A stretch of 34,563 nucleotides of DNA from Candidatus Omnitrophota bacterium. Its GTDB lineage: Bacteria; Omnitrophota; Gorgyraeia; Zapsychrales; Fredricksoniimonadaceae. The notes under the pieces were generated by a model, which searched no databases, was not told the DNA's origin, and saw only the letters and a program-made list of their open reading frames with translations. Position 1 is the stretch's first letter; the number at the start of each line of letters is the position of its first letter. The stretch covers positions 1 through 34,563 of the forward strand of contig JADFWS010000006.1 of the NCBI GenBank assembly GCA_015234065.1, given 5' to 3'. A program made the position numbers and the translations under genes. Below are positions 21,020 through 34,463 of this stretch, piece by piece.

Positions 21020-21062
21020 CAACCGCCACAACCTCCGGGGTTATGGCGGTTGTTGATGTTTC
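21009..21062. repeat. Palindromic element, copy 1 (24-bp stem)
   Basis: Bases 21010-21062 form a 24-bp inverted repeat with one mismatch and loop TCCGG. The arms begin GAAACATCAACAACCG and end CGGTTGTTGATGTTTC. The first 43 bases (21009-21051) match the element at 34421-34463 at 39 of 43 positions. It lies between two divergent gene starts, so it cannot simply be the terminator of either flanking gene. It could be a REP-like dispersed element, an operator, or a bidirectional insulator. Confidence 0.75.
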
Positions 21063-21159: not shown

Positions 21160-24100
21160 ATGTTTCACTGGTTTAAACAAATGAATGATCGTCGTATTCT
21201 TTTGCGTATCTCTATGCGTACGATGGTGTTTGCGCTCTGCTTTTCGCTGGTTTTTGGGCCTGGCGCACAGGTGCGTGCAGATGTTTTTAATGTGAATTCC
21301 CTTCCTCAGCCGGGGGCCATGCTGGGTATATCGCCTGCGTTTGTGCCTGCGCTTGTGAGAGGCCTGATCGTTGATCCCCAAAAGCCGTTGAATTTCCAAT
21401 TTATTGTGGATAGTGGCAATGGCGCGGCAACGACGGATGCTGTACGCAGTGAAGGTGCTCGCATGGTGCGCTATTTCCTGGCTTTTTTGACAGTGCCGGA
21501 AAAAGACCTGTGGGTCAATCTTTCGCCATATGAGCATGACCGCATGATCGCCGATGGTTTGGGGAAGACTGTTCTTGGCCGCGATCTTTTGGCCCAGGAT
21601 TATGTTTTAAAGCAACTGACAGCTTCGCTTATTTATCCTGAAAAAGGCCTCGGGAAAGAATTCTGGGCCAAAGTTTATGCCGAAGCCAGGTCCCAGTTCG
21701 GAACGATAGATATCCCTGTCGATACATTCAATAAAGTCTGGATCATGCCGGAGCGTGCTGAAATCTTCGAGCAGACTAATCGCGTTTATGTGACGGGTGC
21801 CAAGCTCAAGGTCATGCTGGATAGTGATTATGTCGCCATTGCGAATAATACAGCGGCGGCTCCGTCGATCACCAGGCAAATTATTCGTGAGATCGTCCTT
21901 CCGGCCATTGAAAAAGAAGTCAATGAAGGCAAAAATTTTGCTCCACTCCGTCAGATCTATTACACTGCGATCCTGGCCAAGTGGTATCGCGATGCTATTA
22001 CACAAACGCTGTTGAAACAGGCCTATTTGGGAAAGAACAAGGTCGCGGGTATTGATTCCGGGGATGTGAAGTTGAAAGAAGAGATCTACGCCCGTTATAT
22101 CGCTGCGTATAAGGTGGGTGTGTTCAATTACATTAAAGAAGAAAAAGACCCTTTGACCAACGAAGCGATCCCGCATAAATATTTCTCCGGCGGGATGGTT
22201 GATTTTGCGATGAACCATGTTGTGTTAGAGCATGCGTTGAATGTAACGGCTACAGGTGGAACATTTAAGTTAGGGGTTCAGCTTTTAAAAGCATCGCGGC
22301 AGGTAGAAAGTGAACTTCAGTCGGATTCCAGGGATAGCGCGATGAGCTCATTCTTTTCACGCCGTCCCGACCTTAAGCCCGAAAGCGCTTTTGACAAGAG
22401 TGTCAAAGAGGGCCTGAATAAAGCGTATAAAGAGGGGCGCCTCGTGGAGCCGTTACCGTATGCCGGGGCGGCAGATGGTGCGTATCATGTGGAGACTGGG
22501 GGCCCGATGGCCGTGGAGCCGTTGGAGTTCTCGCCGAGAACCATGATCGGTGATTTTAACGGGATTCCCCTTTATGGCCTTGATAAGCCCAGGTTCCCAA
22601 ATTCTTTTGCGGTGACGTTTAAAGGCGAGTTGACCCGGGAGATTCTTGAGCAGGTCATTTATATGGCGGTTATTTCTCAAAAAAATGAGGTCAAGTTTGT
22701 GTACGATCAGCCACGCACGCCTGAGGCCGCGTCCTATGTTCAGGGGTTTGATGACCCTGAGATATTCTTGCCGATTGAAACAGTGATCACAAAACCGGGA
22801 TATGAAGATGGCGGGGTCGTTGTAAGTGGCCTTTTGGAGCATCCGGATAAGTGGTATCCGGGTAAAAAAGTCATTGTTCTTCAAGGGCAGGATGCGATGG
22901 AGTTGAGCCGGGTTCTTTGGGCTCAGCTGGAAAATCTTCAGGCCGGGGAGAGAGTGTTTCAGCAAAGAGAGATCCAGAGTGACAAAGTGATCATCCGGAC
23001 GATGAAAGAACAACGTTCGGCGATCCCGTACAGTCTTTTGATCGCGAAAAATGTGGATGAGAGCGGCAGGGTCGCGGGGCTTAAGGTGTATATTTTTATG
23101 CGTGGGGAAGCGGTTGGCCAGGTAAAGGGCTTAAGCATGCCGCTTGGCACCGTTGAAATGGCGGGTGATTTTGTCCTTCCAGAGACTGTAGCGCCCGAGG
23201 TCCTGACAGAATTAATCAGGCAGGGTGATTTTAAGGGAGCGCGAAAAACGATTTCTGTTCAAACGGCTGTGACGGAAGAGCCGCGGCCTGTGCGGCCTGC
23301 GGAAGAAGAATCAGCCATGGTATCGGGAGATTTTTCCGATCCTGTTTTTGCTTTAGAATGGTTTTTACCGGCGGCAAGCCTCCTGCTCACAACGGTGGTG
23401 GCGGTTGGTGTCGGCATTCCGGCATGGCAGGCATTGAGGAAGGAAAAGAATGTGCGCCGCGGCCAGCTTCAGCAGAAATTAAATCATCGCTGGCACGAAG
23501 GTGTATATATCAACGCGAATGATTATATAGATGTCTTAACAGATAATTTCTTCAAAGAAGAGAGTCGGGTTAGCGCTTGGAACGATCTTGTGCTGGAGCG
23601 ATGGAAGTTGCATGAAGAGATGTTGGCACTATCATCGCGGTTAAGCAGTATGGATCCGGCGAATGCGAACAGCCTTTTAACCATGGCGGAGCTTACCAGA
23701 AAACAGCATGACGCGATCCAATTTTATGACGATCCTTTTCGCCAGGCGTTTGCGGCTGCGAAAGGCCGGCGTAAGAAGATCCTGACAGCGCTTGGCCGTC
23801 AATGGGATTATATGACCGGGCATGATGTGGATAATCCTGACGGGAAAGGCGTGTTTGCGTCGTTGGATCCGGACATAGCCCGACGTTTGTCGATGGATGT
23901 GTACAGATTGATCGCGCCGAGGATGGCGGCTGATGCGGCACCGGCTCTTTCCGAGAACATGGTGCAAGAGGAGTCGGCGATGACAGGTTCTGTGCGTCAG
24001 GAAAAGATGGACGGTGGTATTGATATTCAAAACATTGGCCTGACGAAGAGCGGCGCTTCGGCCGACATTCAATATGACGTGGCCCAGGCTCAGGGCATTC

Positions 24101-24186
24101 TTGACGGCGGGTTTGAAGGTTTTGCACCGGTGATCACGAGTGTCATTCCAATGGTATCCCCGCAGCAAGCCCTTGGCGTGCATTAA
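21160..24186 (+). CDS. Large Omnitrophota-type exported protein of unknown function
   Basis: 1008 residues. The N-terminus has a signal-peptide-like helix (MRTMVFALCFSLVFGPG) and a possible cleavage after VRA (residue 40). A ~200-residue conserved-looking block follows: SLPQPGAMLGISPAFVPALVRGL, KDLWVNLSPYEHDRMI, LLAQDYVLKQLTASLIYPEKGLG, PVDTFNKVWIMP. The middle region (~430-700) has no motif I can name. A second helix (LPAASLLLTTVVAVGVGIPAW, ~733-757) precedes a charged C-terminal domain. The end carries MDGGIDIQNIGL...FAPVITSVIPM. The tetrapeptide [D/E]SAM occurs three times in linker-like places (residues 392, 717, 938). From memory the N- and C-terminal blocks recur in very large Omnitrophota proteins. 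Function unknown. GAGG precedes ATG 21160. Confidence 0.8.
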   Translation: MFHWFKQMNDRRILLRISMRTMVFALCFSLVFGPGAQVRADVFNVNSLPQPGAMLGISPAFVPALVRGLIVDPQKPLNFQFIVDSGNGAATTDAVRSEGARMVRYFLAFLTVPEKDLWVNLSPYEHDRMIADGLGKTVLGRDLLAQDYVLKQLTASLIYPEKGLGKEFWAKVYAEARSQFGTIDIPVDTFNKVWIMPERAEIFEQTNRVYVTGAKLKVMLDSDYVAIANNTAAAPSITRQIIREIVLPAIEKEVNEGKNFAPLRQIYYTAILAKWYRDAITQTLLKQAYLGKNKVAGIDSGDVKLKEEIYARYIAAYKVGVFNYIKEEKDPLTNEAIPHKYFSGGMVDFAMNHVVLEHALNVTATGGTFKLGVQLLKASRQVESELQSDSRDSAMSSFFSRRPDLKPESAFDKSVKEGLNKAYKEGRLVEPLPYAGAADGAYHVETGGPMAVEPLEFSPRTMIGDFNGIPLYGLDKPRFPNSFAVTFKGELTREILEQVIYMAVISQKNEVKFVYDQPRTPEAASYVQGFDDPEIFLPIETVITKPGYEDGGVVVSGLLEHPDKWYPGKKVIVLQGQDAMELSRVLWAQLENLQAGERVFQQREIQSDKVIIRTMKEQRSAIPYSLLIAKNVDESGRVAGLKVYIFMRGEAVGQVKGLSMPLGTVEMAGDFVLPETVAPEVLTELIRQGDFKGARKTISVQTAVTEEPRPVRPAEEESAMVSGDFSDPVFALEWFLPAASLLLTTVVAVGVGIPAWQALRKEKNVRRGQLQQKLNHRWHEGVYINANDYIDVLTDNFFKEESRVSAWNDLVLERWKLHEEMLALSSRLSSMDPANANSLLTMAELTRKQHDAIQFYDDPFRQAFAAAKGRRKKILTALGRQWDYMTGHDVDNPDGKGVFASLDPDIARRLSMDVYRLIAPRMAADAAPALSENMVQEESAMTGSVRQEKMDGGIDIQNIGLTKSGASADIQYDVAQAQGILDGGFEGFAPVITSVIPMVSPQQALGVH

Positions 24187-24416: not shown

Positions 24417-24899
24417 ATGGTAGTTGAAAACTTGGCAGATGATGTAAAGAAGGTCGTGGAACGCTGGAAGGATAAAGAGGGCAACCTCATTATGGTCCTT
24501 CACGATATCCAGGATCATTACGGGTATGTCCCGCGTGAAGCCGCGCTTGAGATCTCGCGTCAGCTGGACCAGCCGCTGGCGCGGATCTATGAAGTTCTGA
24601 CTTTTTACAATTATTTCAAACTTCAGCCGCCGGGAAAGTTCAATATTTCGGTGTGTTTGGGCACGGCCTGTTATTTAAAAGGTGCGGCGGCTCTTATTGA
24701 AGAAGTGACCCGCGTTCTTCATATTAAGGAAGGCGAAACCACTAAAGACGGGCTTTTTCATTTGCAGATCGTGCGTTGCCTGGGCTGTTGCGGCCTGGCG
24801 CCGGTCATCACGGTGGACGGGAAAGTATATAGTGCGGTCAAGCGCGCGGATGTGATGGAGATCATTGCCGAGCATTCCAAGAACCACGGCCAGAAATAA
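24417..24899 (+). CDS. hndA: [FeFe]-hydrogenase subunit, NuoE-like [2Fe-2S] protein
   Basis: 160 residues, AAGGAG ribosome-binding site. A NuoE-type thioredoxin-like fold is shown by LIMVLHDIQDHYGYVPREAA, then the [2Fe-2S] ligands in CLGTACYLKG and CLGCCGLAPV. In electron-bifurcating and NAD(P)-linked hydrogenases this subunit (HydC/HndA) carries one cluster and docks to the flavin subunit. It is the first gene of a four-gene operon driven from the TATAAT promoter upstream. The size is normal for the family. Confidence 0.92.
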   Translation: MVVENLADDVKKVVERWKDKEGNLIMVLHDIQDHYGYVPREAALEISRQLDQPLARIYEVLTFYNYFKLQPPGKFNISVCLGTACYLKGAAALIEEVTRVLHIKEGETTKDGLFHLQIVRCLGCCGLAPVITVDGKVYSAVKRADVMEIIAEHSKNHGQK

Positions 24900-24914
24900 T
24901 ATCAGGAGATTTTT

Positions 24915-25256
24915 ATGGGGATCGTGAAACAGGACCTGTTGAACATGAAGACCGTGGCGGTGAACAAGCGCGCCAAGAACTGGATCCGTGTCGGGTATTC
25001 GACGTGCGGTGTGGCTGCCGGGGCCAAGGAAGTCCTCGAAGTGCTTACGGAAGAAGCCAAGACGCGCGGACTCGACGTTGAAGTGAAAAAGTGCGGCTGT
25101 CTGGGGCTGTGTTCGGCAGAGCCGCTCGTGGAAGTGAATGTAGAAGGCGCGCCGCGCGTATTTTACGGCAAGGTGAATAAGGATGTCGCGCATAAGATCA
25201 TGGACGAGCATGTGTGCCAGAAGAAGCTCGTTGATGGGCATATTTACGAGATTTGA
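24915..25256 (+). CDS. hndB: [FeFe]-hydrogenase subunit, thioredoxin-like [2Fe-2S] protein
   Basis: 113 residues with AGGAG upstream. The pattern GYSTCGVAAGAKEVLEVL followed by KKCGCLGLCSAEPLVEV is the HndB-type [2Fe-2S] thioredoxin-like protein, the fourth subunit of tetrameric hydrogenases such as Desulfovibrio fructosovorans HndABCD. It carries the four cysteines missing from the N-terminal thioredoxin-like region of HndC in this locus, so the cluster seems to be supplied by a separate polypeptide. Confidence 0.88.
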   Translation: MGIVKQDLLNMKTVAVNKRAKNWIRVGYSTCGVAAGAKEVLEVLTEEAKTRGLDVEVKKCGCLGLCSAEPLVEVNVEGAPRVFYGKVNKDVAHKIMDEHVCQKKLVDGHIYEI

Positions 25257-25270
25257 TGGGCCAAGGGCCC

Positions 25271-25316
25271 GTCATCCTGAGGCCGGAAGGCCGAAGGATC
25301 GCCCCACGGGAATGAC
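25271..25316. repeat. REP-like palindromic repeat between hndB and hndC
   Basis: The 46 bases begin GTCATCCTGAGGCC and end CGGGAATGAC. The ends pair as GTCAT/ATGAC, with an inner hairpin GGCC-GGAA-GGCC. Sequences of the type GTCATCCTGAGG...CGAAGGATC are familiar as dispersed palindromic repeats in many genomes. Its position inside an operon, in an otherwise compact array, fits insertion of a small mobile palindrome. Confidence 0.55.
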
Positions 25317-25345
25317 GCATATTTAATAAAGCATGAGGATGAGAT

Positions 25346-27079
25346 ATGAAACGGATATTGATCCAGGATACAGACGGGAATAAAAAGAAGGACCTGCGCG
25401 ATTTTGCGGTGGCCTTAACAAGCCAGCTGCGCGAGCGCAATCTCGACGGGCAGTGCCAGGTGGTAACAGTGGCTGACCTCGGGGTTTATAATAAAGGCTT
25501 GGCGGCGCGCGTCTTGCCGGAGGGCTTTATTTACAAGAATCTGGAAATAAAGAATATCACTGAGATCATCGACAAGACCATTATCGCGGGCCAGAAGATC
25601 GACGCATTGGCGTTTGACAAGAAGAGTAAGCAGATGCGCGTGGTCCTTCGTAATTGCGGGGTTGTTGATCCCGAGAGTTTTGATGAGTACGTGGGCAATG
25701 ACGGGTATCAGGGCCTTGTGCGCGCGCTGGAGATGGGGCCTGAGCAGGCGATCGCCGAGATGAAAAAATCCGGCCTGCGCGGCCGTGGCGGCGCCGGTTT
25801 TCCGACGTGGCTTAAGTGGGATATTACGCGCAAGGTGTCTGGTGACGTAAAATATATTATTTGCAATGGTGATGAAGGCGATCCGGGCGCGTATATGGAT
25901 CGTTCGGTCCTCGAAGGAGATCCCCACTCGGTCATCGAAGGCATGATGATCGGCGGGTTTGCGGTCGGCGCGACGTATGGGTTCTTTTATATCCGTGCCG
26001 AGTACCCGCTCGCCGTTGAACGCATCCAGAAGGCGATCAACAAGTGTTATGAAAAAGGCCTGCTGGGAAAGAATATTTTAGGGAGCAATTTCAATTTTGA
26101 TATGGAGATCCGTTTGGGTGCCGGCGCGTTTGTGTGCGGCGAAGAGACGGCGCTCATCGCGTCTGTCGAAGGCCTGCGCGGGTATCCTCGCCCTCGTCCG
26201 CCATTCCCGTCGGTCAAGGGCCTGTGGGATAAGCCTACGGTCATTAACAATGTGGAAACGCTGGCGAACATTCCGTATATTTTCGCCAAGGGTGGCGAAG
26301 AATTCGGCAAGATCGGGACCGAAGGTTCCAAGGGGACCAAGGTATTTGCGGTCACTGGCAAGGTGCGCAATTCCGGCCTGGTCGAGGTGCCGATGGGGAT
26401 CACGCTCCGCGAGATCGTGTTCGATATCGGGGGCGGCGTTTTTGAGAATAAGGCGATCAAGGCGATCCAGACCGGAGGCCCGTCGGGCGGTGTGATCCCG
26501 GAGCAGTATTTTGATACGCCGGTCGAATATGAAAGTTTGCAGAAGCTGGGGTCTATCATGGGTTCCGGCGGCATGATCGTCATGGACGAAGACGATTGCA
26601 TGGTCGATATTTCCAAGTTTTATCTTGGGTTTTGTGTTGATGAGTCGTGTGGCAAATGCGCGCCGTGCCGTATCGGTGGCACCCAGATGCTCGGGATACT
26701 GACCAGGATCTCGGAAGGCAAGGGTAAGGCGGACGACCTTAATAAGTTGAACCAGATCGCGCTCGCGATGCAAAAGGCTTCTTTATGCGGCCTTGGGCAG
26801 ACGGCGCCGAATCCGGTCTTGTCCACGCTTAAATATTTTGCGGAAGAATACCGGGCTCACGTAGAGGACGGAAAATGTCCGTCAGGAAAGTGCGCAAGCC
26901 TTGTGTCGTTCTTGATCCATAAAGACAAGTGCACGGGCTGCGGCCTTTGTGCGCGCAACTGCCCTGTGAACGTGATCGCAGGCAGCCGCCAGGAAAAGTA
27001 TGTGATCGATCAGGAAAAGTGCATCAGCTGCGGGATGTGCTACCAGGTCTGTAAATTCGACGCGGTGGAGCGTCAATAA
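25346..27079 (+). CDS. hndC: [FeFe]-hydrogenase flavin/NAD(P)-binding subunit, NuoF-like
   Basis: 577 residues. The FMN/NAD(P)H module has GRGGAGFPTWLKW (near 145) and CNGDEGDPGAYMDR (near 172). The N3-type [4Fe-4S] cluster has ESCGKCAPCRIGG (near 432) and SLCGLGQTAPNP. Two C-terminal ferredoxin motifs, CTGCGLCARNCP and CISCGMCYQVCK, complete a HydB-type subunit. The first ~110 residues align with the thioredoxin-like [2Fe-2S] domain of HydB, but the expected CVGTGC and CCGRC cysteines are absent, leaving a cluster-less domain. This is the site of flavin-based electron bifurcation in HydABC-type enzymes. The gene starts 89 bases after hndB, across the REP-like repeat. Confidence 0.93.
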   Translation: MKRILIQDTDGNKKKDLRDFAVALTSQLRERNLDGQCQVVTVADLGVYNKGLAARVLPEGFIYKNLEIKNITEIIDKTIIAGQKIDALAFDKKSKQMRVVLRNCGVVDPESFDEYVGNDGYQGLVRALEMGPEQAIAEMKKSGLRGRGGAGFPTWLKWDITRKVSGDVKYIICNGDEGDPGAYMDRSVLEGDPHSVIEGMMIGGFAVGATYGFFYIRAEYPLAVERIQKAINKCYEKGLLGKNILGSNFNFDMEIRLGAGAFVCGEETALIASVEGLRGYPRPRPPFPSVKGLWDKPTVINNVETLANIPYIFAKGGEEFGKIGTEGSKGTKVFAVTGKVRNSGLVEVPMGITLREIVFDIGGGVFENKAIKAIQTGGPSGGVIPEQYFDTPVEYESLQKLGSIMGSGGMIVMDEDDCMVDISKFYLGFCVDESCGKCAPCRIGGTQMLGILTRISEGKGKADDLNKLNQIALAMQKASLCGLGQTAPNPVLSTLKYFAEEYRAHVEDGKCPSGKCASLVSFLIHKDKCTGCGLCARNCPVNVIAGSRQEKYVIDQEKCISCGMCYQVCKFDAVERQ

Positions 27080-27092
27080 AGGAGTTCAAGTC

Positions 27093-28853
27093 ATGGCAAC
27101 GGCACTGATGGTGAAAGCGCTTATTAATGGTATCCCGGTCGAAGTGGAAGCCGGGACAAGCATTCTTGACGCGGCTAAAAAGGTACAGGTCAATATCCCG
27201 ACACTCTGCAAACACCCCGACCTGACGGCGTCCGCCGGTTGCGGTATTTGCATTGTGAAGGTGAAAAATAACAGAAAACTCTTGCGTGCGTGCTGTACGC
27301 CTCTTGAGAACAACATGGAGGTCATGACGCATGATCCCGAGATCGTTCAGACGCGCCGTACGGTGCTTGAGCTGATCATGTCGAACCATCCGACGGATTG
27401 TTTGATCTGCGGGCGCAACAATGATTGCGAGCTTCAGAAGATCGCGGCCGAGTTTGGTATCCGTGAGGATCTGTTCGAGCGCGTGCTCCCCGAGATCCCG
27501 GTGGATAAGTCAACCGGGACGATCATCCTTGAGCCGAAAAAGTGCATCAAGTGCGGGCGCTGTATCGATGTGTGCCAGAATATGCAGGATGTGTGGGCTT
27601 TGTCTTTTATTCAGAGAGGCTTTAAGACGCGTATTTCACCGGCAGGGGATATCAAGCTTGCCGAATCGCCATGTGTGCGTTGCGGCCAGTGTTCCGCGCA
27701 TTGCCCGACGGGTGCGATCTTCGAGAACGATGAAACGCAGAAAGTCTGGTCGCTCCTTCAGGATCCGGACAAGCATTGCGTGGTCCAGATAGCGCCGGCG
27801 GTCCGTGTGGCTGTTGGTGAGGGGTTCGGATATCCGGTTGGGACGAACTTGACCAAAAAATTATATGCGTTGTTACGCCGTTTAGGGTTCAAGGCGGTGT
27901 TTGATACGAATTTCGGTGCCGATCTTACGATCATGGAAGAGGGCACGGAGTTCGTAGAGCGGTTTGTGAACAAAAAGGGCCCGTTGCCGCTCATCACCAG
28001 CTGCTGCCCGGCGTGGGTTGATTATCTTGAGAAGTATTATGGCGATATGATCAGCCTGTTCTCGTCGGCCAAGAGCCCGCATGAAATGGTGGGGGCGCTG
28101 ACCAAGACGTATTATGCCGGTAAAAAGGCGATCGATCCTGCCAAGATCAAAGTGGTTTCGATCATGCCGTGTACGGCCAAGAAATACGAGATCAGCCGCA
28201 CGGAAGATATGTCGGCGTCGGGGTATCAGGACGTGGATGTGTCGTTAACGACGCGTGAGCTGATCCGCATGATCAAGCAGGCCGGGATCGACTTCAAGAA
28301 TCTTCCGGATGAAGACGCGGACCTGATGCTCGGCGATTATGCCGGCGCGGGTACGATCTTCGGCGCCACGGGTGGTGTTATGGAAGCGGCACTGCGTACG
28401 GCGTATTTTGCGATCACGGGCGAGAATCTCAAGGATGTGAATTTCACGGCGGTCCGTGGATTGCAGGGTGTCAAGGAAACCACGGTCAACGTGAAGGGCA
28501 CAGAGGTCAAGATCGCGGTGGCGCATGGGCTTAAGAATGTCAAGTTCGTGATGGATAAGGTGCGTGATGCGCTGAAGAATAATCAGCCATTGCCATATCA
28601 TTTTATTGAGGTCATGGCATGCCCCGGCGGATGTGTCGGCGGCGGCGGCCAGCCGTATATGGTGACGGACGATATTCGTAAGCAGCGCGCAAAGGGCTTG
28701 TACGACGAGGATGCTGGTATGCCCAAGCGCTGTTCGCATGAGAATCCGTTTGTTCAGGAGCTGTACAAGGATTTTCTGGAAAAGCCGTTGTCACACAAGG
28801 CGCATAAGTTACTGCATACGCATTATAAAGCGCGCCCGTTGTATGTGAAATAA
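27093..28853 (+). CDS. hndD: [FeFe]-hydrogenase catalytic subunit, group A3
   Basis: 586 residues. An N-terminal plant-type [2Fe-2S] region (CKHPDLTASAGCGIC...ACC) is followed by the His-ligated [4Fe-4S] site (HPTDCLICGRNNDC) and two ferredoxin motifs (CIKCGRCIDVC, CVRCGQCSAHCP). The H-cluster signatures are intact: L1 TSCCPAW (near 302), L2 MPCTAKKYE (near 358) and L3 MACPGGCVGGGGQP (near 508). Domain content and the NuoE/NuoF-like partners place it in the NAD(P)-linked, often bifurcating group A3. It lacks the extra C-terminal [2Fe-2S] domain of Thermotoga HydA. AAGGAG precedes the ATG. The enzyme should be cytoplasmic, as no signal peptide is seen. Confidence 0.95.
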   Translation: MATALMVKALINGIPVEVEAGTSILDAAKKVQVNIPTLCKHPDLTASAGCGICIVKVKNNRKLLRACCTPLENNMEVMTHDPEIVQTRRTVLELIMSNHPTDCLICGRNNDCELQKIAAEFGIREDLFERVLPEIPVDKSTGTIILEPKKCIKCGRCIDVCQNMQDVWALSFIQRGFKTRISPAGDIKLAESPCVRCGQCSAHCPTGAIFENDETQKVWSLLQDPDKHCVVQIAPAVRVAVGEGFGYPVGTNLTKKLYALLRRLGFKAVFDTNFGADLTIMEEGTEFVERFVNKKGPLPLITSCCPAWVDYLEKYYGDMISLFSSAKSPHEMVGALTKTYYAGKKAIDPAKIKVVSIMPCTAKKYEISRTEDMSASGYQDVDVSLTTRELIRMIKQAGIDFKNLPDEDADLMLGDYAGAGTIFGATGGVMEAALRTAYFAITGENLKDVNFTAVRGLQGVKETTVNVKGTEVKIAVAHGLKNVKFVMDKVRDALKNNQPLPYHFIEVMACPGGCVGGGGQPYMVTDDIRKQRAKGLYDEDAGMPKRCSHENPFVQELYKDFLEKPLSHKAHKLLHTHYKARPLYVK

Positions 28854-28905
28854 GGCGTGGCAGTATTAATATAAATCCTGTACCAAGGGCGCGTGCCTGA
28901 GGCGA

Positions 28906-28968
28906 GGGATCGGGAAGAGTAGATATTCAAGCCCCGGTCCTGTTTTATCAGGATCGGGGCTTTTTATT
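28906..28968 (+). terminator. Terminator with competing upstream stem (possible attenuator)
   Basis: The terminator stem AAGCCCCGGTCCTG / CAGGATCGGGGCTT (28929-28942 and 28949-28962, one G-U pair, loop TTTTAT) runs into TTTTTATTTAT. An upstream segment GGGATCGGG (28906-28914) repeats part of the 3' arm and can pair with CCCCGGTCC in the 5' arm, forming an alternative hairpin that would prevent the terminator. Only about ten bases separate the T tract from the ribosome-binding site of the TM1266-family gene, leaving no room for a promoter after it. Expression of the maturation operon must therefore pass through this element. Confidence 0.7.
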
Positions 28969-28981
28969 TATAGGAGGCATC

Positions 28982-29230
28982 ATGGATAAGCGGCTTGGTT
29001 TTATTGGCATTATTATCGAGGACCGGCGGAAGTCGGCGCCGAAAGTCAATGAGCTGTTGACCCAGTACGGGGAATCGATCATTGCGCGCACAGGCATCCC
29101 GTATCGGCCGAAGCATTGCAATGTGATCACGCTCGCGGTGGAAATGTCGACGGATGAGCTTGGCAGTCTGACCGGGAAGCTAGGCGCGCTTGAAGGTGTC
29201 ATGGTTAAATCGGCACTCGCAAAGGCTTAG
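28982..29230 (+). CDS. TM1266-family iron-only hydrogenase system regulator
   Basis: 82 residues, TAGGAGG ribosome-binding site. The ACT-like/NikR-C-like small protein (RLGFIGIIIEDRRKSAPKVNELLTQYG, IIARTGIPYRPKHCNVITLAVE, LGSLTGKLGALEGVMVKS) is the TM1266 family, consistently found with hydE/F/G and called a putative iron-only hydrogenase system regulator. It has no DNA-binding domain of its own, so the mode of regulation is unproven. It opens the maturation operon and follows the attenuator-like terminator directly. Confidence 0.88.
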   Translation: MDKRLGFIGIIIEDRRKSAPKVNELLTQYGESIIARTGIPYRPKHCNVITLAVEMSTDELGSLTGKLGALEGVMVKSALAKA

Positions 29231-29236
29231 GTGCGT

Positions 29237-30610
29237 ATGGATTATCGAACTGAACAAGATTCTCTTGGCTCAAAACAGGTCCCGATCAATGCGTACTACG
29301 GCATTCATACGGCGCGGGCGCTGGAGAATTTCTCATCCGGCACGCGGCGTGTGCCGCTGTGCTTGATCTATGCGTTAGCGATGGTGAAGCGGGCGGCGGC
29401 TGAGGCGAACCGGGATCTGGGGTATCTTCCGCCGGATATCGCAGGTGCGATCAGTACAGCCTGTGATGATGTATCTGCAGGGAAGTTGGATGGGGAATTT
29501 ATGTTGAATGCGTTTCAGGGCGGAGCCGGCACATCCACGAATATGAATGTGAATGAAGTACTTGCGAATCGGGCGCTGGAGATATCGGGTCAACCTAAAG
29601 GCGCGTACGGTGTTATCCATCCGCTGGATCATGTGAATAAACATCAGTCGACCAACGATGTATATCCGACGGCGCTCAAGGTGGCGCTGATCGGTCAGTT
29701 TCGGGGGCTGGCCGAGGCGGTGGCGGGTGTGCAGGGCGCGCTTCAGCGTAAGGAAAAGGAATTTGCGGGTGTGGTCAAGATCGGCCGGACCGAGCTTCAG
29801 GAGGCGGTCCCGATGACGCTCGGCGCCGAGTTTTCGGCGTGGGCAGAGGCGGTGTCAAGGGATCGCTGGCGCACGTTTAAATGTGAAGAGCGTTTAAGGG
29901 TTGTCAATCTTGGCGGGACCGCGATCGGGACCGGGTTGGGCGCGCCGCGAGAGTATATCTTTCTGGTGATCGAGAAATTGAGAGCGATCACAGGGCTTGG
30001 GCTGGCCCGCGGCGAGAATCCCGTCGGAGAGACCGCCAACGCGGATGTGTTGGTTGAGGTGTCGGGTATCCTCAAGGCGCACGCCGTGAATCTTCTGAAG
30101 CTATCGAACGACCTGCGGTTGCTCAATGAGTTGGGCGAGATCAGGTTGCCGTCCCTTCAGGCAGGCTCGTCTTTGATGCCGGGCAAAGTAAATCCGGTGT
30201 TGTGTGAGGCGGCGGCGCAGGCCGGGCTTCTGGTGATCGCGAACGATATGCTGGTGACCGAAGCCGCATCACGGGGCACACTGCAGATCATTGAATTTTT
30301 GCCGCTTCTGGCAACGGCGCTGATCGAGTCTTTGGAAATCCTCAAAGACATTGATATAAAATTGGCCGTACATATCGGCGGGATCAAGGCGGATGAGGCA
30401 AAGTGCCGTTATTATTTTGATCGAAGCCCGACGTTGGTGACGGCATTTGTGCCGTATGTCGGGTATGACCGGTGTGTCGCGATGTTGAAAGAATTTGAAG
30501 CGTTGCCGCAAGAAAACCTGAACGATTTCCTCGTTGAAAAGCTGGGGCGGGAAGAGGTTGAGAAGGTTTTGGCACCGCATAATCTCGTCGGTTTGGGGTA
30601 CAGGAAATAA
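29237..30610 (+). CDS. aspA: Aspartase/fumarase-family lyase in the maturation operon
   Basis: 457 residues from ATG 29237. A GTG at 29231 is equally in frame. Aspartase-type motifs are present: GTSTNMNVNEVLANRALE, HVNKHQSTNDVYPTALKVA, GRTELQEAVPMTLGAEF, GTAIGTGLGAP and the signature GSSLMPGKVNPV. The family releases ammonia from L-aspartate to give fumarate. Genes of this type recur beside hydE/F/G, and the H-cluster azadithiolate nitrogen derives from ammonium, so a local ammonium supply is a fair inference. After the signature loop the sequence diverges from E. coli aspartase, so another substrate is possible. The stop overlaps the hydF ATG (TAATG). Confidence 0.85.
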   Translation: MDYRTEQDSLGSKQVPINAYYGIHTARALENFSSGTRRVPLCLIYALAMVKRAAAEANRDLGYLPPDIAGAISTACDDVSAGKLDGEFMLNAFQGGAGTSTNMNVNEVLANRALEISGQPKGAYGVIHPLDHVNKHQSTNDVYPTALKVALIGQFRGLAEAVAGVQGALQRKEKEFAGVVKIGRTELQEAVPMTLGAEFSAWAEAVSRDRWRTFKCEERLRVVNLGGTAIGTGLGAPREYIFLVIEKLRAITGLGLARGENPVGETANADVLVEVSGILKAHAVNLLKLSNDLRLLNELGEIRLPSLQAGSSLMPGKVNPVLCEAAAQAGLLVIANDMLVTEAASRGTLQIIEFLPLLATALIESLEILKDIDIKLAVHIGGIKADEAKCRYYFDRSPTLVTAFVPYVGYDRCVAMLKEFEALPQENLNDFLVEKLGREEVEKVLAPHNLVGLGYRK

Positions 30611-31863
30611 TGGAAACAACGTCAAAATCATTACGGCTTCAGATCGGTATCTTTGGACGGACAAACGTCGGGAAATCGAGTTTTTTGAATATGCTCACCG
30701 GCCAGGATGTGGCGATCACGTCTTCGGTGCCGGGCACGACCACGGATGTGGTTGAAAAGTCGATGGAGCTTTTGCCGCTCGGGCCGGTCGTGTTTTTGGA
30801 TACGGCGGGATTGGATGATGTATCTCTTCTCGGTGCAAAGCGTGTGGAGCGCGCACGCCGGGCGCTTGATCGCTCTGATGTGGCGCTGGTTCTGGTCGAG
30901 CCGAATGTATGGGGCGATGAGGAGCGTTTACTGGCGCAGGAATTGAGGGATAAGAAGAAGCCGTTTATTATCATTGTGAATAAATCTGATTTAAAAGCGT
31001 CATCGGATGATTCTTTAAATCAGTTGCGTCAGGTTACGGACAGGATCGTTGTTCTTTCGAGTGTCGCGCCTGAAGGGCGTGCGCAGGCGCTGGAAGAGAT
31101 CAAGCGCTTGCTTATATCGGTATGCCCGGAAGACTTTCTAAGGCCGCCGGCATTGTTGGGTGATCTGGTGCCGTCGGGAGGTTTGGCTGTGCTGGTTGTT
31201 CCGATCGATCTCCAGGCTCCAAAGGGGCGGCTTATTTTGCCGCAGGTGCAGGCGATCCGAGATGCGCTGGATAATGATGCGGCAACACTTGTCGTCAAAG
31301 AGCGGGAATATGCCGCGATGCTGGCCCGGCTTAAGGCATTGCCGGACCTGGTGGTGTGTGATTCGCAGGTGGTGATGAAGACGGTCGCGGATACGCCCGA
31401 GGCGGTGAAGTGCACGACGTTTTCCATTTTATTTGCACGTTTTAAGGGTGATCTGATCGAGCTGGCCAAAGGGGCGGCGCATATTGAAGCCTTAAAGCCC
31501 GGCGACAAAGTCTTGATTGCGGAAAGCTGTTCGCATCACGCGGCCGAGGATGATATCGGCCGTGTCAAGATCCCGCGCTGGCTGCGGCAATATGTCGGCG
31601 GAGACCTTCAGGTCGATCATTTCTCGGGCCGGGATTATCCGAAGAATTTGAGCGAGTACAAGCTGATCGTCCATTGCGGCTCATGCATGCTGACCCGCGG
31701 GGAAATGCTGTTGCGTATTCATCAGGCGAAAGAAAAAGGTGTGCCGATCACGAATTATGGCGTCGGGATATCTTTTGTTCAAGGAGTTTTGAGGCGCGCA
31801 TTATCGCCATTTCCGGCGGCATTGGACGCATTCAATAAGGAGATGTTACATGTCAGAAAATAA
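30610..31863 (+). CDS. hydF: [FeFe]-hydrogenase maturation GTPase HydF
   Basis: 417 residues. The N-terminal GTPase has G1 GRTNVGKS (16-23), the G2 Thr and G3 in SVPGTTTD...VVFLDTAGLDD, and G4 NKSD. A middle dimerisation region follows. The C-terminal cluster-binding domain has CSH (near 307) and HCGSC (near 355), the expected CxH...HCxxC ligands of the HydF [4Fe-4S] scaffold. HydF is the scaffold that receives the binuclear iron intermediate and transfers it to apo-hydrogenase. It overlaps aspA by one base (TAATG) and hydG by 14 bases. Confidence 0.95.
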   Translation: METTSKSLRLQIGIFGRTNVGKSSFLNMLTGQDVAITSSVPGTTTDVVEKSMELLPLGPVVFLDTAGLDDVSLLGAKRVERARRALDRSDVALVLVEPNVWGDEERLLAQELRDKKKPFIIIVNKSDLKASSDDSLNQLRQVTDRIVVLSSVAPEGRAQALEEIKRLLISVCPEDFLRPPALLGDLVPSGGLAVLVVPIDLQAPKGRLILPQVQAIRDALDNDAATLVVKEREYAAMLARLKALPDLVVCDSQVVMKTVADTPEAVKCTTFSILFARFKGDLIELAKGAAHIEALKPGDKVLIAESCSHHAAEDDIGRVKIPRWLRQYVGGDLQVDHFSGRDYPKNLSEYKLIVHCGSCMLTRGEMLLRIHQAKEKGVPITNYGVGISFVQGVLRRALSPFPAALDAFNKEMLHVRK

Positions 31864-33343
31864 TCATACATCATGGATGGGCGGACGCATCCGCATGGAC
31901 GAGGTCACAAAATATATGGATCAGGGCCGGGATTTTATTGATGATGCCAGGATCCAGGCGCAGATCAATGCGGCACCAAAAGAACCATCGGCGGCACAAG
32001 TTCGTGACATTTTAGCTAAATCCTGGGCGATCAAGGATCTGACGCCGGACGAAGTAGCGGTCCTGATCAATGTGAATGATCCGGGCTTGCTTGAAGAAAT
32101 GCGCGCGATGGCGCTTAAGATCAAGCTTAAGATCTATGACAACCGTATCGTGACATTTGCGCCGTTTTATCTCGGAAATTACTGCGTGAATAAATGCGCA
32201 TATTGCGGATTTAATCAGGACAATGCCACGGCCAAGCGCAACGTGCTTGATCCTGAGCAGATCCGCCGGGAAGTGGAGGTTTTGACCGGCACGATCGGGC
32301 ACAAGCGCCTGATCGCGGTGTACGGCGAGCATCCGCAGAATGATGTGGATTATGTCGTTGAATCACTCAAGGCGATTTATTCCGTGCGTGTTAAGACGCG
32401 TCACGGGCATGGCGCGATCCGCCGGGTGAATGTGAATGCGCCGCCGTTCTCGATCGACGACCTTAAAAAGATCAATGAGGCCGGGATCGGCACGTATCAG
32501 GTTTTTCAGGAGACGTACCATAAAGAGACATACGCCAAAATGCATCCGAAAGAAACGATCAAGGGCAATTATGATTGGCGTTTGTATTGTATGCACAGGG
32601 CTATGGAGGCCGGGATCGACGACGTCGGGATCGGGGCTTTGTTCGGCCTGTACGATTGGCGTTTTGAGCTCATGGCGCTTATTTATCATACGCAGGAATT
32701 GGAGAAACGGATGGGCGTTGGCGCGCATACTATTTCTTTCCCGAGGCTGGTGCCGGCGCTCAATTCCATGATCACGCCCGACTGGCCGTATCTGGTGAAT
32801 GATGCGGATTTCAAGAAGATCATGATGATCATCCGCCTGGCGGCGCCGTATACCGGGATGATCATTACCGCGCGTGAGAAGGCGGAGATTCGTAATGAGG
32901 CGGTCTTGATGGGCGTGACGCAGATGGATGCGTCGTCACGGATTTCGATCGGCGGCTATTCGGATTGCGTCACCGAACAGGACGAGGTGAAACAGCAGTT
33001 TATTCTGGGGGACACGCGTTCGCTCGACCAGCTGATCCGCGATCTGGCACAGATGGGTTTTATTACTTCTTTTTGCACGGCCGGGTATCGCTGCGGCAGG
33101 ACGGGAAAATGTATTATGGACCTGTTGCGCAGCGGCGCGGAGGGCAAGTTCTGTAAATTGAATGCGGTCCTGACATTCCAGGAATGGCTGGATGATTTTG
33201 CGTCGGAAGACACGCGCAAACTGGCCATGCCGCTCATTGAGCGTGAAGTGGCCGAGATCAAGGACAAGAATCCGGGAGCGCTCGCCATATTCCTCGAATA
33301 TCACGACCGGATCAAGAAGGGCGAACGGGATCTGTATTTATGA
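31850..33343 (+). CDS. hydG: [FeFe]-hydrogenase maturase HydG (tyrosine lyase)
   Basis: 497 residues. The radical SAM motif CVNKCAYC spans residues 112-119. HydG cleaves tyrosine to form the CO and CN ligands of the H-cluster. The C-terminal auxiliary cluster region reads CTAGYRCGRTGKC from residue 409, ending with Cys435. In well-studied HydGs the motif is CTACYR with CX2CX22C. Here the second Cys is Gly412, while additional cysteines stand at 415 and 421. The rest of the family pattern (RTRHGHGAIRRVNVNAPPFS-like region, GAHTISFPRL, ASSRISIGGY) is intact, so function is likely but cluster ligation may differ. AAGGAG precedes the ATG, and the gene overlaps hydE by ATGA. Confidence 0.94.
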   Translation: MSENNHTSWMGGRIRMDEVTKYMDQGRDFIDDARIQAQINAAPKEPSAAQVRDILAKSWAIKDLTPDEVAVLINVNDPGLLEEMRAMALKIKLKIYDNRIVTFAPFYLGNYCVNKCAYCGFNQDNATAKRNVLDPEQIRREVEVLTGTIGHKRLIAVYGEHPQNDVDYVVESLKAIYSVRVKTRHGHGAIRRVNVNAPPFSIDDLKKINEAGIGTYQVFQETYHKETYAKMHPKETIKGNYDWRLYCMHRAMEAGIDDVGIGALFGLYDWRFELMALIYHTQELEKRMGVGAHTISFPRLVPALNSMITPDWPYLVNDADFKKIMMIIRLAAPYTGMIITAREKAEIRNEAVLMGVTQMDASSRISIGGYSDCVTEQDEVKQQFILGDTRSLDQLIRDLAQMGFITSFCTAGYRCGRTGKCIMDLLRSGAEGKFCKLNAVLTFQEWLDDFASEDTRKLAMPLIEREVAEIKDKNPGALAIFLEYHDRIKKGERDLYL

Positions 33344-34338
33344 ACCGTGATGACATCCTGAAATCGTTGATGACCGCAGACCTGGCCGCTTTATGTGCCG
33401 AGGCGGACCGTGTGCGTCGGGAACATGTCGGGGATGCGGTGCATTTGCGCGGGTTGATCGAGTTTTCAAATGCCTGCGGCCGGGATTGTTTGTATTGCGG
33501 GCTTCGCCGGTCCAATCGGGAAGTGGTGCGGTACCGGATGGGGACGGATGAAATATTCGCGTCGGCCGCGTTTGCGGCAGGGCTGGGGTTCAAGAGTTTG
33601 GTTTTGCAGTCCGGGGAAAGTGCGCAATATGAAACGGATGCTTTGTGCGCGCTGGTGCGCCGGATCAAGGCCGAGCTGGGTGTGGCGATCACGCTGTCGA
33701 TCGGAGAGAAAACGCGGGAAGAGTATGCGGCACTGAAAAAGGCCGGTGCGGACCGGTACTTGCTCAGGTTTGAGACATCGTCGGATGTGCTGTTCCGGAA
33801 GCTTAAGCCGGATTCTTCGCAGGCTGAGCGCATGGCCTGTTTGCACGCCCTGCGTGAGGTCGGCTTTCAAGTGGGCAGTGGCATCATGGTCGGGCTTCCC
33901 GGGCAGACCGTGGAGATGATCGCGGATGATATTTTCTTAATGCAGGAACTGGATCTCGACATGATCGGTTTTGGCCCGTTCATTGCGAATCCCGAAACGC
34001 CGCTCAAGGATCAGGGGAATGCGTCGCTGGACTTGACGTTGCGGACATTAGCCGTTATTCGTATTGTCATGAAGAATGTGCATATCCCGGCGACAACCGC
34101 CATGGGGACCATTGATCCCGAGGGTCGTCAGAAAGCTCTGCGTGCTGGAGCCAATGTGCTCATGCCGAATGTGACGCCTACGGTATACCGTGAAATGTAT
34201 CAACTCTATCCTAACAAGCCGGGCCTCAAGCAGGCACCGAGCGATACGTTTGAAACGCTCGTAAAACTCGTTCATTCCGTAGGCCGCACCGTCGCCATTG
34301 ATGCCGGCCACAGCCTTAAGCCTGCGCCATCACCTTGA
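33340..34338 (+). CDS. hydE: [FeFe]-hydrogenase maturase HydE (radical SAM)
   Basis: 332 residues. The cluster motif CGRDCLYC occupies residues 46-53, preceded by LIEFSNACG as in HydE/BioB-like enzymes. Other HydE-typical stretches are QSGES, LSIGEKTREEYAALKKAGADRYLLRFETS and GSGIMVGLPGQT. HydE processes the HydG product (the Cys-bound Fe(CO)2CN synthon) on the way to the binuclear cluster. It starts with an ATGA overlap on hydG and is the last gene of the maturation operon. The element at 34421 lies ~80 bases downstream and may end the transcript. Confidence 0.94.
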   Translation: MNRDDILKSLMTADLAALCAEADRVRREHVGDAVHLRGLIEFSNACGRDCLYCGLRRSNREVVRYRMGTDEIFASAAFAAGLGFKSLVLQSGESAQYETDALCALVRRIKAELGVAITLSIGEKTREEYAALKKAGADRYLLRFETSSDVLFRKLKPDSSQAERMACLHALREVGFQVGSGIMVGLPGQTVEMIADDIFLMQELDLDMIGFGPFIANPETPLKDQGNASLDLTLRTLAVIRIVMKNVHIPATTAMGTIDPEGRQKALRAGANVLMPNVTPTVYREMYQLYPNKPGLKQAPSDTFETLVKLVHSVGRTVAIDAGHSLKPAPSP

Positions 34339-34416: not shown

Positions 34417-34463
34417 TTGACGAAACGTCAACAACCGACATAACCTCCGGGGTTATGTCGGTT
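34417..34463. repeat. Palindromic element, copy 2, with extra palindrome
   Basis: The 43 bases 34421-34463 match copy 1 (21009-21051) at 39 positions. The inner hairpin AACCGACATAACC / GGTTATGTCGGTT is perfect over 13 bp with the same TCCGG loop. One C-G pair of copy 1 is A-T here (compensatory change), and the C/A mismatch of copy 1 is a T-A pair. The outer arm is not conserved on the right. Immediately left, TTGACG-AAA-CGTCAA (34417-34431) forms another palindrome overlapping the element. It follows hydE and may serve as a terminator, although the T tract is weak. Confidence 0.7.

Follow-up and report, generated by a model that had tools for sequence, protein, structure and literature searches.

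Omnitrophota are widespread, uncultured bacteria proposed to be predators or parasites; according to PMC10066038, little is understood of what their large proteins do, and their giant open reading frames (ORFs; >20 kb) are poorly conserved. Here we analysed a 34,563-nucleotide stretch of a Candidatus Omnitrophota assembly (contig JADFWS010000006.1; "the window"), in which a verified reading frame with an ATG start (21160-24186, + strand) encodes a 1008-aa member of a protein family with two constant ends and exchangeable middles. Like the giant ORFs of PMC10066038, these are very long, poorly annotated proteins from the same phylum, with open frames that carry the conserved N-terminal domain (N-domain) reaching 6160 aa; an N-domain/tail architecture is not mentioned in that paper's passages on giant ORFs. 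On balance, we judge it somewhat probable that the family consists of lineage-specific, Sec-exported carriers of exchangeable cargo that are cut after export. A literature search that reached few subscription papers found no earlier description of the family, and a prior description is possible.

The nearest functional parallel, for which homology is not claimed, would be found in the enzyme-secreting Chlamydia, a member of the PVC group. By type III secretion, Chlamydia trachomatis secretes the glycogen-metabolism enzymes GlgA, GlgB, GlgX, GlgP and MalQ as well as the PGM CT295 (PMC4829429, PMC9251005). Here too, housekeeping-type sugar enzymes would be exported, and the starch/glycogen synthase, debranching enzyme, MalQ and PGM classes are shared with the family cargo. 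Whereas Chlamydia uses type III signals on ordinary enzymes, however, the family cargo is flanked by a large N-domain bearing a Sec-type signal and by a C-terminal tail, and this predicted Sec-type N-terminus argues against type III secretion of the family. Polymorphic toxins and effectors likewise join a constant exported part to rapidly exchanged domains, with many paralogues per genome. There, variability lies at the effector end, whereas the present family has two constant ends, a variable middle and mostly metabolic or regulatory cargo; no toxin domain was recognised among the cargo matches listed, neighbouring immunity genes not having been searched for. A short conserved C-terminal block behind unrelated middles is also typical of type IX secretion system C-terminal domain, PEP-CTERM and sortase substrates; unlike such sorting tags, the family tail has no membrane helix and is always paired with the N-domain in the data seen. 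Pfam and NCBIfam contained no known C-terminal sorting domain matching the window protein at E <= 10, and a search for the SprA translocon gave no match in 15 genomes, nor in any control genome.

Constancy of both ends is the defining property of the family. With profiles for each of the two conserved pieces (an N-domain of ~310 aa and a GGID tail of ~58 aa), 85 of the 89 family ORFs that are complete proved to have both; three of the four tail-less ORFs are followed by a tail-bearing ORF downstream and look like split genes, and the remaining one breaks off where its contig ends. Across 97 aligned N-domains, 31 columns are invariant. Between these ends, 135 middles fall into 109 clusters (E < 1e-5), nearly all unrelated, and the window protein conforms to this arrangement, its N-domain and GGID tail enclosing a middle unrelated to those of other members. 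Identities of N-domain and tail are correlated (rho 0.36; 0 of 200 permutations as high), and the two ends therefore tend to travel together. Some cargo is common to different genomes at 55-77% identity, and the N-domains of cargo-sharing pairs are close in some cases and not in others, thus suggesting vertical inheritance plus exchange. By a simple hydrophobicity scan, 122 of the 126 N-termini examined in the family contain an h-region, and 80 an AxA-like site.

Within the source assembly (1.75 Mb, 176 contigs, 86% complete), residues ~20-350 of the window protein match ~25 further places, mostly at 44-60% identity, and its last ~60 residues give separate matches. Listing the ORFs of matching contigs yielded 26 N-domain genes, eight of which have no tail and either leave the contig end or break off there; all seven tail-only ORFs begin at a contig end. 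Because the incomplete genes of both kinds sit at contig ends, the true family size would be 26-33 genes, and the family is estimated to occupy roughly 4% of the assembly. Neither N-domain nor tail was found in 468 kb of other contigs from this genome. Use of the tail as an independent sorting tag without the N-domain was rejected, as tail-only ORFs all lie at contig or locus ends or after a split ORF, with none in those 468 kb. The original prediction, made from the window sequence alone, had proposed a large uncharacterised family with a conserved N-terminal and a GGID-type C-terminal block; both blocks and the many Omnitrophota relatives are borne out, and what it missed is the paralogous organisation into constant ends and exchangeable middles, many of the latter being enzymes of a cytosolic type.

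Scanning of the N-domain alignment against GTDB species genomes returned at least 489 confirmed relatives. Of 384 sampled Omnitrophota genomes, 137 have a match at E <= 1e-10, among them the majority of those from the window's order; first-look candidates number up to 78 in one genome, of which six per genome were scored. Among the matches listed, nearly all titles are Omnitrophota; one record each from Elusimicrobia and Bacteroidales may be mis-binned, and two are labelled "bacterium" only. As far as searched, the family is thus Omnitrophota-specific, in keeping with the restriction that had been predicted. Three IMG/VR contigs (L192, L193 and L194) also encode the N-domain at 47-54% identity, and may be host contigs wrongly assigned as viral.

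Recognisable cargo includes entire metabolic enzymes. In the source genome, family members carry a transketolase with a histidine phosphatase domain (L053), a transaldolase (L048), the N-terminal part of PPDK (L059), a phosphoglucomutase truncated by the contig end (L069), a histidine-kinase ATPase (L062) and a methyltransferase (L052), together with weak HD and HTH matches. In other Omnitrophota, sugar enzymes are represented by phosphoglucose isomerase (PGI), PGK, PPDK, PGM/PMM, UDPGP, starch synthase and a glycogen debranching enzyme with 4-alpha-glucanotransferase; further enzymes comprise adenylate and nucleoside-diphosphate kinases, LpxC, Maf, glutamate and alanine dehydrogenases, an epimerase, methyltransferases and an M48 peptidase, and other recognised cargo comprises SNF2 and repeats of the ankyrin, WD40 and TPR kinds. 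The alignment of the L094 PGI cargo spans nearly the whole enzyme (614 bits to 3hjb), and this cargo keeps GGRYS, ESNGK, GQH and GVELGK, motifs that hold catalytic residues. For PGI and PGK, the two enzymes for which genomes were tested, a separate copy, encoded by a frame of ~400 aa, exists alongside the fused one; fused PGI and PGK are therefore extra copies, and their interpretation as replacements of the housekeeping enzymes is ruled out. The sole transaldolase copy found in the 86%-complete source genome is the cargo of L048 (1-2121).

Module boundaries are marked by a short motif, [DE]-x-A-M. Family sequences contain it 225 times, compared with 40 times once they are shuffled and 26 times in a set of other ORFs with a similar summed length; the raw family count partly reflects FDPAM within the tail. 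Counted positionally as [DEN].AM, it lies within 80 aa after the N-domain in 45 of 85 proteins (7 expected from its density in the remaining middle), and in 28 it precedes the tail by no more than 45 aa (4 expected). When counted up to, and not into, the tail, just one of 40 instances falls inside recognised domains, which cover 27% of those cargos (binomial ~6e-5); the PGI cargo of L094 is flanked by DEAM and DKAM. A narrower form, [DE][SNA]AM, held for the source genome only and was discarded in favour of [DE]xAM as the general form. Genomes differ in their use of the motif: some have many instances and others none, and a few of those without it have SSP[VLI] in its place (small numbers). 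About one-third of full-length family proteins have no [DE]xAM. In the simplest reading, it looks like a proteolytic processing site.

We infer that a Sec-type signal would take the carrier protein out of the cytoplasm, where the constant N-domain and GGID tail would most likely serve in routing or assembly. Cutting at [DE]-x-A-M, or at a lineage-specific substitute, would probably then release the swappable middle from the two ends; in relatives, this cargo ranges from central carbon and glycogen enzymes, nucleotide enzymes, methyltransferases and kinases to DNA-binding domains and ankyrin/WD40/TPR repeats. Its destination could be the cell's own envelope, the medium, or a prey or host cell. 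These features suggest that Omnitrophota use the family to position interchangeable enzymes beyond the cytoplasm, in a manner not described before. If so, it gives a concrete handle on the large proteins of this phylum, i.e., a constant N-domain and tail to trace and a candidate cleavage motif, with cargo lists that hint at the metabolism of the target cell. Several secretins were found in all 15 Omnitrophota genomes checked (4-10 family matches each). This points to more than one machine of the type II or type IV pilus kind per genome, which could offer the family an exit route.

Four points weigh against exported carriers. The signal peptides come from a simple scan, and export is a prediction. 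Most middles have no match to a known family, such that enzymes are a minority of the cargo. Enzymes such as PGK and adenylate kinase need nucleotides, which are scarce outside the cytoplasm, and could therefore function, if anywhere, inside another cell. With transaldolase encountered only as a fused copy in the incomplete source genome, some fused enzymes could act in the cytoplasm. A more elaborate proposal is that of an undescribed effector deployment, whereby dozens of Sec-exported polyproteins per genome would be cut at [DE]xAM to deliver intact metabolic enzymes and interaction proteins, drawn from swappable cassettes, into prey or host cells, with a putatively new-fold N-domain and the GGID tail providing the routing; this we put forward tentatively, as possible and somewhat on the unlikely side.

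Proteins of the envelope or surface, in which N-domain and tail anchor or polymerise the chain and the middles function as display, adhesion or structural domains, would share the signal peptides and constant ends, and could account for the ankyrin, TPR and WD40 repeats of some members as well as the membrane helix of the window member; the passages of PMC10066038 on Omnitrophota large proteins also propose these as adhesins. We nonetheless hold this role to be unlikely, as whole metabolic enzymes, including a PGI with intact catalytic motifs, are unexpected in structural proteins, and the tail has neither a membrane helix nor a known anchoring motif. Exchangeable middles with such enzymes speak for the deployment of cargo more than for an envelope role that is structural alone; of the envelope, predation or secretion roles first envisaged for the window protein, the apparent export stands and predation is possible. 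Enzymes of glycolysis, of the pentose phosphate pathway and of glycogen metabolism recur consistently among the cargo, PGI and PGK as extra copies beside the housekeeping ones; this could instead mean that cargo serves the producing cell in its own periplasm or in an internal membrane compartment. That is doubtful to a greater degree, given that cargo differs among genomes with little overlap, unlike a conserved pathway, and that cofactor supply would be unclear.

Very high turnover of the middles, together with the clustering of palindromic DNA elements at family genes, would also be expected of gene-capture by-products, i.e., a repeat-rich, fast-recombining family that gathers segments of foreign or duplicated origin and is under little selection for function; stop-free open frames of up to 6160 aa, intact PGI catalytic motifs, strongly conserved constant ends and 55-77% identical cargo in different genomes make this very improbable. 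Weaker still is an internal translation start at the motif Met, from which modules would also be made separately: the motif does contain a Met after which modules begin, but Shine-Dalgarno-like sequence is not enriched (6% upstream of the motif Met vs 5% before other Met codons), conservation extends to the acidic residue and to Ala, for which all four codons are used, and whole genomes either have the motif or lack it. Since its codons vary and a ribosome-binding-site signal is absent, the motif looks like a protein-level signal.

For the window protein as a whole, Pfam and NCBIfam gave no family match at E <= 10, and PDB sequence searches gave no convincing solved relative, which agrees with the view that it has no characterised relative. 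Its probable Sec signal peptide (residues 1-40, 21160..21279, + strand as for all parts), read by eye from an N-terminal hydrophobic stretch followed by a VRA|D site near residue 40, accords with the one predicted originally. The N-domain (residues 42-347, 21283..22200), delimited by alignments and ending in KYFSGG, was modelled confidently with AlphaFold2 (pLDDT 84.9, pTM 0.83) and had no Foldseek match at E <= 0.001 in PDB or viral libraries; we provisionally consider it a new fold in comparison with these libraries. In the full-length model (mean pLDDT 52.8), N-domain and tail are fairly confident and the cargo is not resolved.

Three boundary motifs divide the middle of the window protein: DSAM (residues 392-395, 22333..22344), an instance of the motif enriched family-wide, and two ESAM copies (residues 717-720, 23308..23319; residues 938-941, 23971..23982). 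The first two enclose cargo module A (residues 396-716, 22345..23307), an ORFan; for the middle of the window protein, neither the family set nor 81 genomes from the order, its own included, yielded a relative. A resemblance to the cargo of L067, which has a weak ATP_transf match, was dismissed as not significant (Smith-Waterman score 60; shuffled sequences averaged 40 and reached 61). Cargo module B (residues 721-937, 23320..23970; low-confidence model) includes a segment predicted to form a membrane helix, and also a stretch modelled as helical, the former being the hydrophobic segment at residues ~735-756 (23362..23427) already noted as an internal helix. The window protein would thus carry ORFan cargo plus a membrane-anchored helical module. 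The GGID tail follows at residues 951-1008 (24010..24183), where the tail profile matches and the full-length model has pLDDT ~70-86.

A palindrome with core CATAACCTCCGGGGTTATG in a longer inverted repeat lies at window positions 21027-21045 and 34439-34457. The same palindrome occurs at L047 12504, L048 2353, L049 1816 and 4622, L051 4694, L052 4682, L055 11152, L062 11278, L066 1984 and L069 12121. On family contigs, 13 of 21 sites lie inside or <=300 bp from a family gene, with 8 sites in the 468 kb of other contigs; the element could be a mobile element, terminator or recombination site. Repeat-like translated inserts (GDPSASPQDD, GATRWVA, RRGDPLGRP) were also seen by alignment in a variable N-domain loop and in linkers (L060 7416-10670, L061 2710-5871, L048 6174-9323, L063 1-930, L065 5494-6814 and L073 1-259), as if palindromic DNA elements had been inserted in frame into family genes. 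Downstream of the window gene, at 24417-34338, we recognised by eye NuoE/F-like and [FeFe]-hydrogenase-like ORFs, a lyase-like ORF and then HydF-, HydG- and HydE-like maturases, which are apparently unrelated to the carrier family.
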